Shown here: piece by piece, positions 6,319 through 32,546 of the stretch
Layout: each line of letters begins with the position of its first letter
How positions within the stretch are numbered: position 1 is the stretch's first letter
Origin: Chryseobacterium sp.
Lineage (GTDB): Bacteria > Bacteroidota > Bacteroidia > Flavobacteriales > Weeksellaceae
Length of the DNA stretch: 64,000 nucleotides
Direction of reading: 5' to 3'
Assembly: GCA_031286615.1 (NCBI GenBank)
Contig: JAITUA010000015.1
Span: 496,001 to 560,000 of the forward strand
Position numbers and translations under genes: made by a program
Notes under the pieces: generated by a model
Told to the model about the DNA's origin: nothing
The model's database searches: none
Seen by the model: only the letters and a program-made list of their open reading frames with translations

Positions 6319-6519
6319 AGAATAATATTCTTTTAGATTATAAAAACAATCAAATTTAAAGAATTATATGCTTTTATTAGTGTTTTTAAAAGTTTATTTT
6401 GCTTAATTATTTAGTTTCAATTGTATTTTTATTCTGTATTATTAATTTTACACAAAATTAAAAACTTTTATTGATAGTTATTGCCATCGTTAAAAGCACA
6501 GTTCTTTAGATACTTCATC

Positions 6520-6690
6520 AAACAGGAAAGGTTTTACTTAACGTAGATTAATAGGGAATCGTGTGAGAATCACGAGCTGTCGCGCAACTGTAAGTAATAT
6601 ACCAAAGGTTTCTGTCCTTGCATATCCACTGCCAAAGCGGGAAGGATGACGGAAACTGTTACAAGTCAGGAGACCTGCCTTTACTGAATT
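6520..6690 (+). promoter_or_regulatory. Cobalamin (AdoCbl-type) riboswitch upstream of metE
   Basis: The conserved core is readable in order: GGGAATCGTGTGAGAATCACG, the segment CTGTCGCGCAACTGTAA, CCACTGCCAAAGCGGGAAGG, and the B12 box AAGTCAGGAGACCTGCC at about 6663-6679. AAAGG near 6526 and CCTTT near 6678 can close the P1 helix. Cobalamin would repress the B12-independent methionine synthase encoded downstream. About 190 nt separate the B12 box from the metE start, and I did not find an obvious intrinsic terminator there, so the expression platform is unclear. Confidence 0.93.
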
Positions 6691-6870
6691 GACAATGCTT
6701 TCGCGGTCTGAAGCTTTTGGGTCATACAGATGATATATCGGATGTATACATTTTCTCTGTGAGGAAGTTGTATTGTTTGTTATATCATGATCCCTGAAAT
6801 TTTATCCGTTAAAACATTCCGAAGCATTTTAAAAGGGCTTTACCATTAAGTTTAATTAAAAAGTTTAAAA

Positions 6871-29363: not shown

Positions 29364-30449
29364 ATGGAAAATTTTATAGTATCTGCAAGAAAATATCGTC
29401 CTCAGGAGTTTGATACGGTTGTAGGGCAATCTCATATTACGGATACTTTAGAACATGCAATTGAAGAAAGCCAATTAGCTCAGGCATTGCTTTTTTGCGG
29501 TCCTCGTGGTGTAGGTAAAACTACTTGCGCCAGAATTCTGGCAAGAAAGATCAATGAGAAAGATGGCTCGGTTTCAGAAGACGGCTTTGCCTATAATATC
29601 TATGAGCTGGATGCTGCATCCAATAACTCTGTAGATGATATCAGGGAACTGATAGATCAGGTAAGATTTGCACCTCAGGTAGGTAAATACAAAGTGTATA
29701 TTATTGACGAGGTTCATATGCTGTCTTCTGCCGCTTTCAATGCATTCCTTAAAACACTGGAAGAGCCGCCTGCTCATGCTATCTTTATTTTGGCTACCAC
29801 GGAGAAACATAAAATTATTCCAACAATTTTATCCCGTTGTCAGATCTATGACTTCAAGAGAATTACAATTGAGGATATCCAGAGCCACCTGAGAAATATT
29901 GCGCAGAAAGAAAATATCCAGTACGAAGATGACGCATTGTACCTGATTGCTCAAAAAGCTGATGGTGCATTAAGAGATGCGCTTTCTATCTTCGACAGGC
30001 TTTCAACCTTCTCTCAGAAAAATATTACGCTGGCAAAAGCAGCTGAAGTATTGAATATCCTGGATTACGATCAATATCTCAATATCGTAGATCTTGCTAA
30101 GGAAAACAAAATTCCTGAAGTACTTTTTGCATTCAATGAAATTGTAAAAAAAGGATTTGATCCCCATATATTCATTGCCGGATTAGGAAATCATTTCAGA
30201 GATCTGATGATGGCACAGAATACTTCTACTATCGATCTCATTGAAGTGGGAGAGAAGACAAAATCTAAATTTATAGAACAGGGACAGAAGTGGGCCGCCC
30301 AGCAGCTGATTGATGGTATTGAAATCTGTAACCATGCAGATATTAATTATAAGAATTCCAAAAACCCAAGACTTACGGTTGAAATTGCATTAATGCAGCT
30401 GGCTTCACTGACAGCTAATTTAGGCGATACTAAAAAAAAAAGTTCCTGA
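29364..30449 (+). CDS. dnaX: DNA polymerase III gamma subunit (0-frame product of dnaX)
   Basis: The zero frame gives a 361-residue gamma-like clamp loader ATPase that stops two codons after an A10 run (ending DTKKKSS). Features are Walker A GPRGVGKTTCAR (46-57), Walker B IIDEVHMLS, sensor 1 ATTEKHK and the arginine-finger motif LSRCQIYDF. The usual Cys4 zinc module between Walker A and ELDAASNN is replaced by a short Cys-free loop, as in other Bacteroidota. The C-terminal third holds the collar domain. This short product would match gamma of E. coli, made by frameshifting. Confidence 0.9.
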   Translation: MENFIVSARKYRPQEFDTVVGQSHITDTLEHAIEESQLAQALLFCGPRGVGKTTCARILARKINEKDGSVSEDGFAYNIYELDAASNNSVDDIRELIDQVRFAPQVGKYKVYIIDEVHMLSSAAFNAFLKTLEEPPAHAIFILATTEKHKIIPTILSRCQIYDFKRITIEDIQSHLRNIAQKENIQYEDDALYLIAQKADGALRDALSIFDRLSTFSQKNITLAKAAEVLNILDYDQYLNIVDLAKENKIPEVLFAFNEIVKKGFDPHIFIAGLGNHFRDLMMAQNTSTIDLIEVGEKTKSKFIEQGQKWAAQQLIDGIEICNHADINYKNSKNPRLTVEIALMQLASLTANLGDTKKKSS

Positions 30450-31063
30450 TCCTGGCTCCGTTTCTTAGTGAGAAACAGGAGGTGAAAATGCCGGAAAAAG
30501 CTCCGGAGAAAAAAGAAGTTAAGGCAGAACAACAGCCAACAGCTTCAGAAAAAATTGAGGAAGCTCCAGTAATAAAAACAAACAAACCATTATCAAGACC
30601 GGGAATTTCTTCCGGTTTCAGCATCAATTCTTTCCTGAATAAAGAAGATAAAGTAGAAACAGGAGAAACAATTGTTGCGAAAAATGAAAATCTTCCTCAA
30701 AACCATTTTACAGATACAGATCTGCAGATGGAATGGAAAATTATGCTTAAACAGCTTCAGGTAAAAAATAACTTTGTTTTTAACGCAGTAAAAACCTTCA
30801 AACTTGAAAAAGCTGAGGAAAATAAAATCAAAGTTTTATTCCCTTCAGATTCTGCCAAAGTAGAATTTGATAAAATAAGCGGAGAATTTTTTAATCATTT
30901 TAAAAGAAAAGTTCAAAACCATATTATTGAGATAGAATACGTCAGAGACGTTGAAAATCTGAAGATTGAGGTAGTGACCAAGAGAAAAATGTTTGAAAAA
31001 ATGATCGAAAAAAATCCACTTTTAAAAGATCTTGATGATTTAATGAAGTTTGATTTGACATAA
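29364..31063 (+). CDS. dnaX: DNA polymerase III tau subunit by -1 frameshift (full-length dnaX)
   Basis: A -1 shift at the A10 run (30432-30441) joins the gamma frame to a second open frame that ends at 31063, giving a 566-residue tau. The added 207 residues contain a charged Pro/Lys/Glu-rich linker (PEKAPEKKEVKAEQQ) and a folded C-terminal domain (QMEWKIMLKQLQVKNNFVFN to KNPLLKDLDDLMKFDL) typical of Bacteroidota DnaX tails. The second frame has no other convincing gene identity. A homopolymer sequencing error (11 A in reality) would give the same fused protein without recoding. Confidence 0.8.
30432..30490 (+). promoter_or_regulatory. Putative dnaX frameshift site: A10 slippery run, stem-loop and internal SD-like sequence
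   Basis: Ten consecutive A (30432-30441) are followed by G. Then CTCCGTTTCT (30456-30465) pairs with AGAAACAGGAG (30471-30481) as a 10-bp stem with one bulged A and a 5-nt loop. The 3' arm runs into AGGAGGTGA (30477-30485), a full Shine-Dalgarno match upstream of ATG 30488 in the tau frame. The zero-frame stop is at 30447-30449. The spacer to the stem is longer than the usual 5-9 nt. Confidence 0.65.
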
Positions 31064-31077
31064 TTTTTATATATTTG
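31049..31077 (+). promoter_or_regulatory. Promoter reading toward the aromatic leader and DAHP synthase gene
   Basis: TTTG (31049-31052), 17 nt, then TATATTTG (31070-31077) fit the flavobacterial TTG-N17-23-TAnnTTTG pattern. The box overlaps the dnaX stop codon, and transcription would start near 31083, about 75 nt before the leader ORF. Confidence 0.55.
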
Positions 31078-31160
31078 TCAAATATTTCTGTTGAAAATAT
31101 GTTTTCGACAAGAACAAATTATAACCAGAAAGGCTAAAACAAACGCATTTCTAGAATAAA

Positions 31161-31292
31161 ATGGAAAAATTGACTAACACATATCTGTCTTTTTTTGCAC
31201 CCGCTAATTACTTTTTTAGCGGTTATTTTAGTTTTTCTGCTTCTTATTATAGAAATTTCAGAACGTATTACCGATTTTATTGGTACTGTTAA
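31161..31292 (+). CDS. Putative Phe/Tyr-rich attenuation leader peptide (43 codons)
   Basis: ATG 31161 opens a 43-codon frame ending TAA at 31290-31292. Eighteen of 43 residues are aromatic (8 Phe, 9 Tyr, 1 Trp), with runs such as YLSFFAPANYFFSGYFSF and RTYYRFYWYC. There is no Ile or Val, which an arbitrary A/T-rich frame would be expected to contain. It lies between a consensus-like promoter and the gene for the first committed enzyme of aromatic amino-acid synthesis fused to chorismate mutase. A terminator-like hairpin (31201-31222) overlaps codons 14-21. By analogy with pheA/trp leaders it could couple aromatic tRNA charging to expression. Translation is not proven. Confidence 0.55.
   Translation: MEKLTNTYLSFFAPANYFFSGYFSFSASYYRNFRTYYRFYWYC
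31201..31236 (+). terminator. Terminator-like hairpin inside the aromatic leader (attenuator candidate)
   Basis: CCGCTAA (31201-31207) pairs perfectly with TTAGCGG (31216-31222), followed by TTATTTTAGTTTTT. GCTAAAA at 31134-31140 is complementary to TTTTAGC in the 3' arm and could form a competing pairing. It could also simply end dnaX transcription. Confidence 0.6.
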
Positions 31293-31463
31293 CTGAATTT
31301 CTTTCCAAAAAATACAGGAGAAGTAGAGCCCTATTATTTTCCTGATTCCTTTAAACAATTTTGAACGGCATTTTTTGAAAAGAATTATAAATTAAATTTT
31401 ATAATCCAAAGGGCTATTGCTGTCAACGAAAAAATTATATAAAAAAACAATAAAATTTAGAAT

Positions 31464-32546
31464 ATGAATTTAAATGATTTGAAAAATGAGTGGATCGATG
31501 GGCTTACACAGCCTCTGATGATCGCGGGACCATGTAGTGCGGAAAGTGAAGCTCAGATGCTTGAAACTGCAAGGAGAATTAAAGAATCCAATGCCAATGT
31601 ATCCGTTTTCCGTGCAGGAATCTGGAAACCTCGTACCAAACCAAACGGGTTTGAAGGAGTAGGAGTGATCGGTTTGAACTGGCTAAAAAAAGTAAAAGAA
31701 GAGTATGGTTTTAAAACAGCTACTGAAGTTGCAAACGCACACCACGTATTTGCCGCTCTGGAAGCAGATGTAGATGTTCTTTGGATCGGAGCGCGTTCTA
31801 CAGTAAACCCATTTACAGTACAGGAAATTGCAATGGCTTTAAGAGGAACAGATAAGCCTGTATTCGTGAAAAACCCTGTGAATCCGGATCTTGCATTATG
31901 GATTGGAGCATTGGAAAGACTCTTAGGTCAGGATATTAAAAATCTGGGAGTAATCCACAGAGGATTTTCGACATACCAGAAAACAAAATACAGAAATAAC
32001 CCGAACTGGCAGATTGCCCTTGATTTCAAGAGCCAGTTTCCAAATATTCCGATGCTGATTGATCCGTCACACATCTGCGGAAACAGAACAGGTCTTGCTG
32101 ACATCACACAGGAAGCTCTTAACGTAGGATACCAGGGAGCTATCATTGAATCACACTGCAATCCTGATGAAGCGTGGAGTGATGCTTCTCAGCAGATTAC
32201 TCCGGAAGTTCTTGCAGACCTTATTGGTAATCTGAAAGTAAGAAGCTCTAATCTTGCAGGATTTGAAGGAGAAATGGGAAGACACAGAACCTTGATCTCA
32301 GATCTTGACTTCCAGTTAATTGAACTTCTTTCTCAAAGAATGAAAATTTCTGAAAAGATCGGTAAGCTTAAAAAGGAAAATGATATTGCAATCTTCCAGC
32401 CTGAACGTTGGAAAGTAATCACTGAATACGCTACTCAAAAAGCGAAAGAAACAGGAATGTCTCAGGAATTTATTGAAAAAGTCTTCAAAGCAATTCACGA
32501 AGAATCTATCGAAGTTCAGAATAACATTATGATCGATAAGAGATAA
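31464..32546 (+). CDS. Bifunctional 3-deoxy-7-phosphoheptulonate synthase / chorismate mutase
   Basis: A 360-residue fusion. Residues 1-265 are a KDPS-like (type I beta) DAHP synthase: MIAGPCSAES, VFRAGIWKPRTKPNGFEG, WIGARSTVNPF, PMLIDPSHICGNR. Residues 270-360 form an AroQ-type chorismate mutase helix bundle: DLDFQLIELLSQRMKISEKI, IFQPERWKVI and FIEKVFKAIHEESIEVQ. The mutase is C-terminal, the reverse of the Bacillus order. The protein controls entry into the shikimate pathway and the branch to Phe/Tyr, so in-chain feedback by chorismate or prephenate is likely. The 400-bp upstream region contains a promoter and an aromatic-rich leader ORF. Confidence 0.93.
   Translation: MNLNDLKNEWIDGLTQPLMIAGPCSAESEAQMLETARRIKESNANVSVFRAGIWKPRTKPNGFEGVGVIGLNWLKKVKEEYGFKTATEVANAHHVFAALEADVDVLWIGARSTVNPFTVQEIAMALRGTDKPVFVKNPVNPDLALWIGALERLLGQDIKNLGVIHRGFSTYQKTKYRNNPNWQIALDFKSQFPNIPMLIDPSHICGNRTGLADITQEALNVGYQGAIIESHCNPDEAWSDASQQITPEVLADLIGNLKVRSSNLAGFEGEMGRHRTLISDLDFQLIELLSQRMKISEKIGKLKKENDIAIFQPERWKVITEYATQKAKETGMSQEFIEKVFKAIHEESIEVQNNIMIDKR

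Follow-up and report, generated by a model that had tools for sequence, protein, structure and literature searches.

An aromatic-rich leader peptide and covarying RNA helices upstream of the DAHP synthase-chorismate mutase gene of Chryseobacterium: a probable ribosome-mediated attenuator of unusual layout

The attenuating leaders of Escherichia coli have a four-segment layout with a terminator located after the open reading frame (ORF). Leader peptides are used by pheA (pheL), pheST, and trp, as stated in PMC11802643. The described system closest in terms of its gene is the aroR leader of Corynebacterium glutamicum, which precedes aroF, encoding a DAHP synthase, and for which a response to Phe limitation is reported (PMC4046766 and PMC11802643). 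In Bacteroidota, the Bacteroid-trp RNA (RF01692) is a leader-peptide RNA, and short ORFs reminiscent of leader peptides, presented as unvalidated, occur in the 5′ untranslated regions (UTRs) of Bacteroides according to PMC7366714, whereas PMC4833913 deals with other leader genes and PMC2965389 contained none of the terms looked for. In the literature covered, mostly at title and abstract level and with subscription journals largely outside, no description of a leader at a DAHP synthase-chorismate mutase gene in Bacteroidota was recognised. Here we analyzed a stretch of 64,000 nucleotides (nt) from Chryseobacterium sp. (GCA_031286615.1, contig JAITUA010000015.1, positions 496,001–560,000), referred to below as the window, in which a gene (31464–32546) encoding a DAHP synthase (PF00793) fused to a type II chorismate mutase (PF01817) is preceded by a leader, here called the aro leader, that is probably an unusually arranged ribosome-mediated attenuator. 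All coordinates are those of the window and, unless stated otherwise, of its plus strand.

Like the aroR-aroF system, the aro leader encodes a leader peptide with Phe/Tyr codons in front of a DAHP synthase gene, but the two belong to different phyla and, compared by description, the aroR motif is Phe-Tyr-Phe whereas the aro leader has 18 aromatic codons out of 43. As in the E. coli leaders, the regulatory codons overlap segment 1, with segment 2 positioned at the stop codon, whereas the terminator follows the ORF in E. coli and the terminator-like hairpin of the aro leader is inside it. RF01692 differs in being a Trp leader located before trpE with a terminator after the ORF; it matches the trpE locus of a Flavobacteriales relative (L195) but not that of the genome studied here (L172), and the window carries no match to it.

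The leader ORF (31161–31292, 43 codons) encodes MEKLTNTYLSFFAPANYFFSGYFSFSASYYRNFRTYYRFYWYC, in which our recount found 8 Phe, 9 Tyr, and 1 Trp residues, the 18 aromatics that a previous sequence-only reading of this DNA had given. As expected of an attenuator, this upstream short ORF is enriched in codons for the products of the regulated pathway (Phe, Tyr, and Trp in the case of DAHP synthase-chorismate mutase), and its aromatic fraction (0.419) ranks first among the 347 ORFs of 30–70 codons on the two strands of the window, the next being 0.333. It lies in the 400-nt spacer (31064–31463; 26% G+C, 74% A+T) between dnaX and the regulated gene, which is followed by rsgA; the named loci with the most similar DAHP synthase-chorismate mutase gene belong to Chryseobacterium, C. 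candidae being the first. The A+T content of the region speaks for a chance by-product of a U-rich structured RNA, but none of 5000 dinucleotide-preserving shuffles of the spacer gave an ORF of 30–70 codons with at least 40% aromatics, ORFs of 30–70 codons of any composition occurring in 2681/5000. In addition, when the relatives described below were aligned without codon information, the difference in ORF length relative to the window was divisible by 3 in 94/98 cases, unlike that of both flanks, which differ by any number, and four relatives (L085, L090, L100, and L102) in which codons ~31–35 are altered regain the same frame at codon 37. The probability of a chance ORF is next to nil.

The close-relative set consisted of the spacers of the 110 best-scoring relatives, which overlap one another and include 98 distinct sequences, and the wider set of 40 further loci from the family and order, five of which (L111, L112, L113, L130, and L137) were added to the counts because the ORF had already been seen there. 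The conserved short ORF that the sequence-only reading had proposed looking for in orthologous spacers, and whose absence it had named as refuting the idea, was found in 110/110 close relatives and, with the five picked loci, in 115/115 (103 distinct sequences), the count without picking being 110/110 since the last five were chosen for having the ORF. The start codon, taken as that nearest to 44 codons and uncertain in some rows (e.g., L067, L072, and L108), is ATG in 70 of the 115, GTG in 36, and TTG in 9. Among 48 sequences less than 90% identical, the ratio of non-synonymous to synonymous differences (pN/pS) decreases from 0.90 in codons 2–12 to 0.63 in codons 13–27 and 0.29 in codons 28–43. 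The ORF is conserved as a coding sequence, as expected of an attenuator, though codons 2–12 show only this value of 0.90, and codons 28–43 are under purifying selection; these include the C-terminal aromatic cluster (codons 29–42, YYRNFRTYYRFYWY, 31245–31286), in which Trp41 is TGG in 48/48 sequences and Tyr29 is kept in 46/48. The selection on the C-terminal half would also suit a functional small protein located before this gene incidentally, but codons 2–12 are nearly unconstrained, the conserved helices described below span the ORF and its flanks, and three diverged leaders preserve aromatic richness and not sequence, which makes a protein of this kind very improbable.

These diverged leaders were recognised by eye in three divergent Chryseobacterium loci (L134, L136, and L138). 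In the other 32/40 family and order loci no leader was recognised, the DNA of 22/40 having been inspected and many of these 22 having a short dnaX-to-gene spacer; a few other ORFs with at least 28% aromatics occurring there (e.g., in L119, L123, L131, L133, L135, L142, and L144) were not counted as leaders. A covariance model covering codons 28–43 and ~90 nt beyond (48 sequences, 146 positions) matched 170/296 genomes of the family at E ≤0.01 under stricter filters, once each, in 3/33 genera (145 in g1 and 25 in g52 and g75). Four g1 genomes gave no match (G064, G099, G079, and G053): three of them carry the diverged leaders, and G099 (L135) has a short spacer. Its position was compared by eye in nine genomes (G000, G025, G027, G036, G042, G082, G107, G111, and G360), in each of which the match lies directly before the DAHP synthase-chorismate mutase gene; in G291 it is on contig C63, near its end, the gene being on C71. 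The order-level search matched 36/296 genomes and 2/90 genera, and the genome studied here was matched once only (E up to 1), namely at this site. Among L114–L131, several genera of the family have by eye a leaderless spacer only tens of bases long, as if the whole leader had been gained or lost within one family.

The same genome carries leaders of the classical type before two other biosynthetic genes. A His-rich leader, MKPTFLALHHYYHHLC (L173, 1157–1207), precedes hisG, and a Trp leader with WWW, MSNNIWWWLSNSSSGLKVLSCC (L172, minus strand), precedes trpE, each being followed by a strong hairpin and a T-run. In a survey of 30 genomes, 8 of which gave no hisG match, His leaders were present in 22/22 hisG loci (18 from Chryseobacterium and 4 from other Flavobacteriales). 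Trp leaders were present in 21/21 scored trpE loci (L172 and L195–L214), though in L196 with just WW. This count excludes another nine, mostly weaker PF04715 loci (L215–L223), of which seven showed no WW ORF and two (L219 and L220) a WW ORF unlike a leader. The T6 runs are located 51–70 nt after the His and Trp stop codons, apart from one His locus with no T6 run. Since these leaders were found and RF01692 exists in Rfam, leader-peptide attenuation is already a known kind of regulation in Bacteroidota. The aro leader resembles the His and Trp leaders of its own cell in that all are short ORFs in which the cognate codons occur in runs; at the Chryseobacterium loci, the latter have 16 (His) or 22–25 (Trp) codons and a T-run 56–70 nt past the stop, whereas the aro leaders have 41–52 codons and no terminator-like site at that place. 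The prephenate dehydratase gene pheA of the same genome had no aromatic leader passing the filter used, the pheS locus showed a single aromatic ORF of 38 amino acids (aa) somewhere on its plus strand, and no PF08502 match for leuA was found in this genome. Before trpE of G118, two successive WWW leader ORFs (L197, positions 102 and 235), each with a hairpin and a T-run, are possible tandem attenuators.

The RNA of the aro leader was examined with a cognate-arm test, in which the duplex energy of two arms taken from one species is compared with that obtained after exchanging arms among species (5000 permutations of 48 sequences); sequences are permuted with no tree model, the slid and unrelated pairs serving as the guard against kinship. 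Six helices show matched changes in their two arms, each with 0/5000 permutations as good. They are H5 (31086–31113; z-score, z, −9.3), a hairpin at the presumed 5′ end of the transcript and the top of the unbiased scan; R1:R4 (z −6.1), a 14-bp helix enclosing the leader start codon and H1, in which R1 (31126–31139) pairs with R4 (31226–31239), formed by the tail of H1 and detected by both the scan and the cognate-arm test; H1 itself (z −9.0); 1:2 (z −4.1), in which segment 1 (AGAAATTTCAG, 31251–31261, codons 31–34, R-N-F-R) pairs with segment 2 (CTGAATTTCT, 31293–31302), immediately 3′ of the stop codon; the P3 hairpin (31315–31344, pairing 31315–31322 with 31337–31344; z −6.2); and P4 (z −7.7), whose 5′ strand (31327–31332) is inside the P3 loop and whose 3′ strand (31410–31415) lies ~50 nt upstream of the gene start codon. 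P4 was first revealed by the unbiased scan, and its duplex energy is −5 kcal/mol or better in 21/48 sequences. Out of 2485 pairs of scanning windows, 192 were strong enough to score; 15 fell below −4 and none above +4, and those below −4 are all in or beside the six helices, except for one pairing R1 with an H1 arm (−4.8).

In four controls, for which the 3′ arm was displaced by 20 nt, z was −0.4 to −1.4 (R1:R4 slid: −1.4), and three unrelated pairs gave +1.1, −0.6, and −2.4. The short A/U hairpin H3 (31384–31405; z −2.3) is not stronger than the last of these, and covariation was weak in H4 (z −1.1), a small hairpin in codons 36–42 (z −1.0), and the nearly invariant outer stem of H2 (z ~0). 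A column test on alignment A1 gave 91.8% paired cells versus 91.0% after shuffling (10/500 as high), a covariation score of 0.115 versus 0.101 (5/500), and 21 double-changed cells versus 10.8 (0/500); the number of pairs with double changes (100/500) and that of further pair types (267/500) were not above the shuffles. A one-column slide reduces the pairing to 65–67%, and at one position of helix 1:2, 26 of 47 sequences have a C-G pair and 11 a U-A pair, the other 10 being unpaired there. Helix 1:2 would be mutually exclusive with H2 (31307–31376), the core of which joins an A-tract (31307–31312) to a U-tract (31371–31376) and encloses P3 and H4; 1:2 covaries, whereas the competing H2 stem is predicted by folding but hardly varies. 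The leader has a second structural domain, around its stop codon, which is absent from the account given in the sequence-only reading.

In H1 (31201–31222, with its tail 31201–31236; codons 14–21), CCGCTAA (31201–31207) pairs with TTAGCGG (31216–31222) ahead of the U-rich tail TTATTTTAGT. The perfect 7-bp hairpin and T-rich tail described in the sequence-only reading were recovered here, as was the arrangement that it called unusual, the only terminator-like hairpin being inside the ORF. H1 is the sole terminator-like site in 30950–31600, where 0.2 would be expected; its stem is retained in 48/48 sequences on local folding, its U-rich tail in 44/48, and terminator criteria are satisfied at H1 in 38/48 aro leaders. 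That reading had also proposed that GCTAAAA, placed at 31134, competes for the 3′ arm of H1. The motif is in fact at 31133–31139 and can pair with this arm (duplex energy −7.2), but its region pairs far better with R4 in the tail of H1 (14 pairs, −14.0), and apart from the single scan pair mentioned above, the z values of the proposed antiterminator are −2.0 to −2.1, as compared with −6.1 for R1:R4. Its pairing probability is 0.00 in 45 folded states; only in short transcripts, ending at 31224 or 31230, and with codon 12 occupied by a ribosome does it reach 0.29–0.35. R1 pairing with the 3′ arm of H1 was rejected as the competing structure.

The effects of a ribosome were computed by masking its footprint in equilibrium folds that exclude pseudoknots. 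With no ribosome, the pairing probability of R1:R4 is 0.97; with the A site at Phe12 (31194–31196; Phe in 39/48 sequences), the entire 5′ arm of H1 is masked and H1 is lost while R1:R4 is retained, so that the claim that a stalled ribosome covers this arm holds in computation, the antiterminator pair attached to it being weak. In transcripts extending to 31430 or beyond, stalls at codons 29–42 give H2 a probability of 0.84–0.95 (0.87–0.94 in a second set of folds) and 1:2 at most 0.07; H2 is at 0.12–0.29 with a ribosome at the stop codon and 0.68–0.73 with none. Another candidate antiterminator, pairing the stop region (31286–31290) with the 3′ arm of H4 (31364–31368), was rejected: it was predicted for the window, at 0.31 with a ribosome at Phe33 and 0.68 at Tyr37 (transcripts to 31376), but showed no covariation (z +0.7).

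In the mechanism that we infer, which includes translation of the leader, stalling, the site of termination, and the sign of the response, transcription would begin near 31083 and a ribosome would enter the 43-codon leader with the polymerase close ahead. A shortage of charged tRNA-Phe, -Tyr, or -Trp would stall it at one of its 18 codons for aromatic residues, altering the choice of helices, and more polymerases, or more usable messages, would then reach the DAHP synthase-chorismate mutase gene. At an early site, a stall at Phe12 would hide the 5′ arm of the leader's sole terminator-like hairpin, H1, and at a late site, a stall in codons 29–42 would cover segment 1 and free segment 2 to join the H2 fold, whereas a ribosome reaching the stop codon would cover segment 2 and block that fold. 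H1 is a possible in-ORF terminator. It may instead be a pause site: when its tail is made, the polymerase is ~75 nt past the leader start, and H1 may therefore let the ribosome catch up.

Several results weigh against attenuation as set out here. With the script that found a terminator-like site after the stop codon in 22/22 His and 21/21 Trp leaders, none was found there in the 48 aro leaders, and since a terminator after the ORF was looked for in this way and not found, the element is not classed as a proven classical attenuator. All 103 of 103 sequences do have a run of at least 5 T downstream of the aro stop codon, at a distance of 57–91 nt (median 78), near the positions of the His and Trp T6 runs, but the hairpin preceding it, H4, is weak. 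In ten of the 48, neither H1 nor any other part of the 5′ UTR or ORF contains a terminator-like site. As H1 is within the ORF, a freely moving ribosome would cover it as well. In transcripts ending at 31376, with the U-tract just made, the probability of H2 does not exceed 0.09 in any state tried, and H2 is therefore unable to decide termination at that U-tract; its A6:U6 core is nearly invariant (z ~0), and z values near −2 are not evidence here, because one of the three unrelated pairs reached −2.4. All candidate terminators lie upstream of the 3′ strand of P4, a hint that the structure of the full-length RNA matters too. Lastly, codons 28–43 are more conserved in their amino acids than a simple codon counter requires.

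This last point bears on arrest by the nascent peptide. In TnaC, the peptide itself arrests the ribosome in response to a free amino acid. In the aro leader, the conserved C-terminus RNFRxYYRFYWYC would similarly stall the ribosome on a free amino acid, and the ribosome near the stop codon would set the RNA fold; the strongly kept residue identity in codons 28–43 fits this explanation, as does the fact that the stop-codon ribosome is the state altering H2 most. The same stretch is partly RNA helix 1:2, however, which itself constrains the codons, and both the number of aromatic codons (18) and the presence of His and Trp leaders elsewhere in this genome favour charged-tRNA sensing, so that peptide arrest is unlikely. 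Another explanation dispenses with a terminator: the position of the ribosome would set a P3/P4 pseudoknot or the H2 fold and change the translation or stability of the message. The strong covariation of P4, the location of its 3′ strand, and the missing terminator after the ORF point this way, but P4 is strong in just 21 of the 48 sequences, and the accessibility of the gene start region (0.46–0.53) does not change between ribosome states, a result on which translational gating of the gene start was rejected. Post-transcriptional control is a possibility, if a doubtful one. The ribosome-mediated attenuator is still the reading preferred here, and its fuller form can be put forward only tentatively: a two-checkpoint attenuator, in which a stall at Phe12 would prevent the in-ORF H1 terminator and stalls in the Tyr/Phe/Trp cluster would choose between 1:2 and the branched H2, to be read out via a P3/P4 pseudoknot on the message.

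The consensus-like promoter reported at 31049–31077 in the sequence-only reading is borne out: TTTG (31049–31052) is followed after 17 nt by TATATTTG (31070–31077), overlapping the end of dnaX. We take it to be of the flavobacterial type on the basis of the Bacteroidota consensus, and transcription would start at ~31083, judging from its position. The −7 box pattern is present in 115/115 spacers, the match used in five of them being located elsewhere, and the aligned −7 box is intact in all 47 alignment rows displayed. A second promoter seen by eye near 31371–31405 was rejected, as a TAnnTTTG box is missing from it and several relatives do not retain its first element. In the upstream gene dnaX, an A10 run (30432–30441) followed by a stem-loop divides the sequence between a frame of 361 aa and a −1 frame that is open, which looks like programmed slippage yielding gamma and tau; the run was detected by a strict pattern in 11 loci and is A10 in 11/11. 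At the gathering score of Rfam release 15, the whole window gave only a cobalamin riboswitch (6512–6696, 95.7 bits), away from the leader. At E up to 1, the leader region gave one weak match only, on the minus strand (31382–31406), where the H3 palindrome resembles RF03141 (S4-Flavobacteria) at 20.5 bits versus a cut-off of 35.2, which is probably due to chance.

In Bacteroidota, translation generally starts with no Shine-Dalgarno pairing of the usual kind. If the proposed mechanism is true, the aro leader would be an example in this phylum of charged-tRNA sensing at the entry to aromatic synthesis. As its layout differs from that of the His and Trp leaders in the same genome, a single organism would provide a direct comparison between classical and unusual attenuators, and with the helices and codons named here, the mechanism could be tested with a few reporter constructs.

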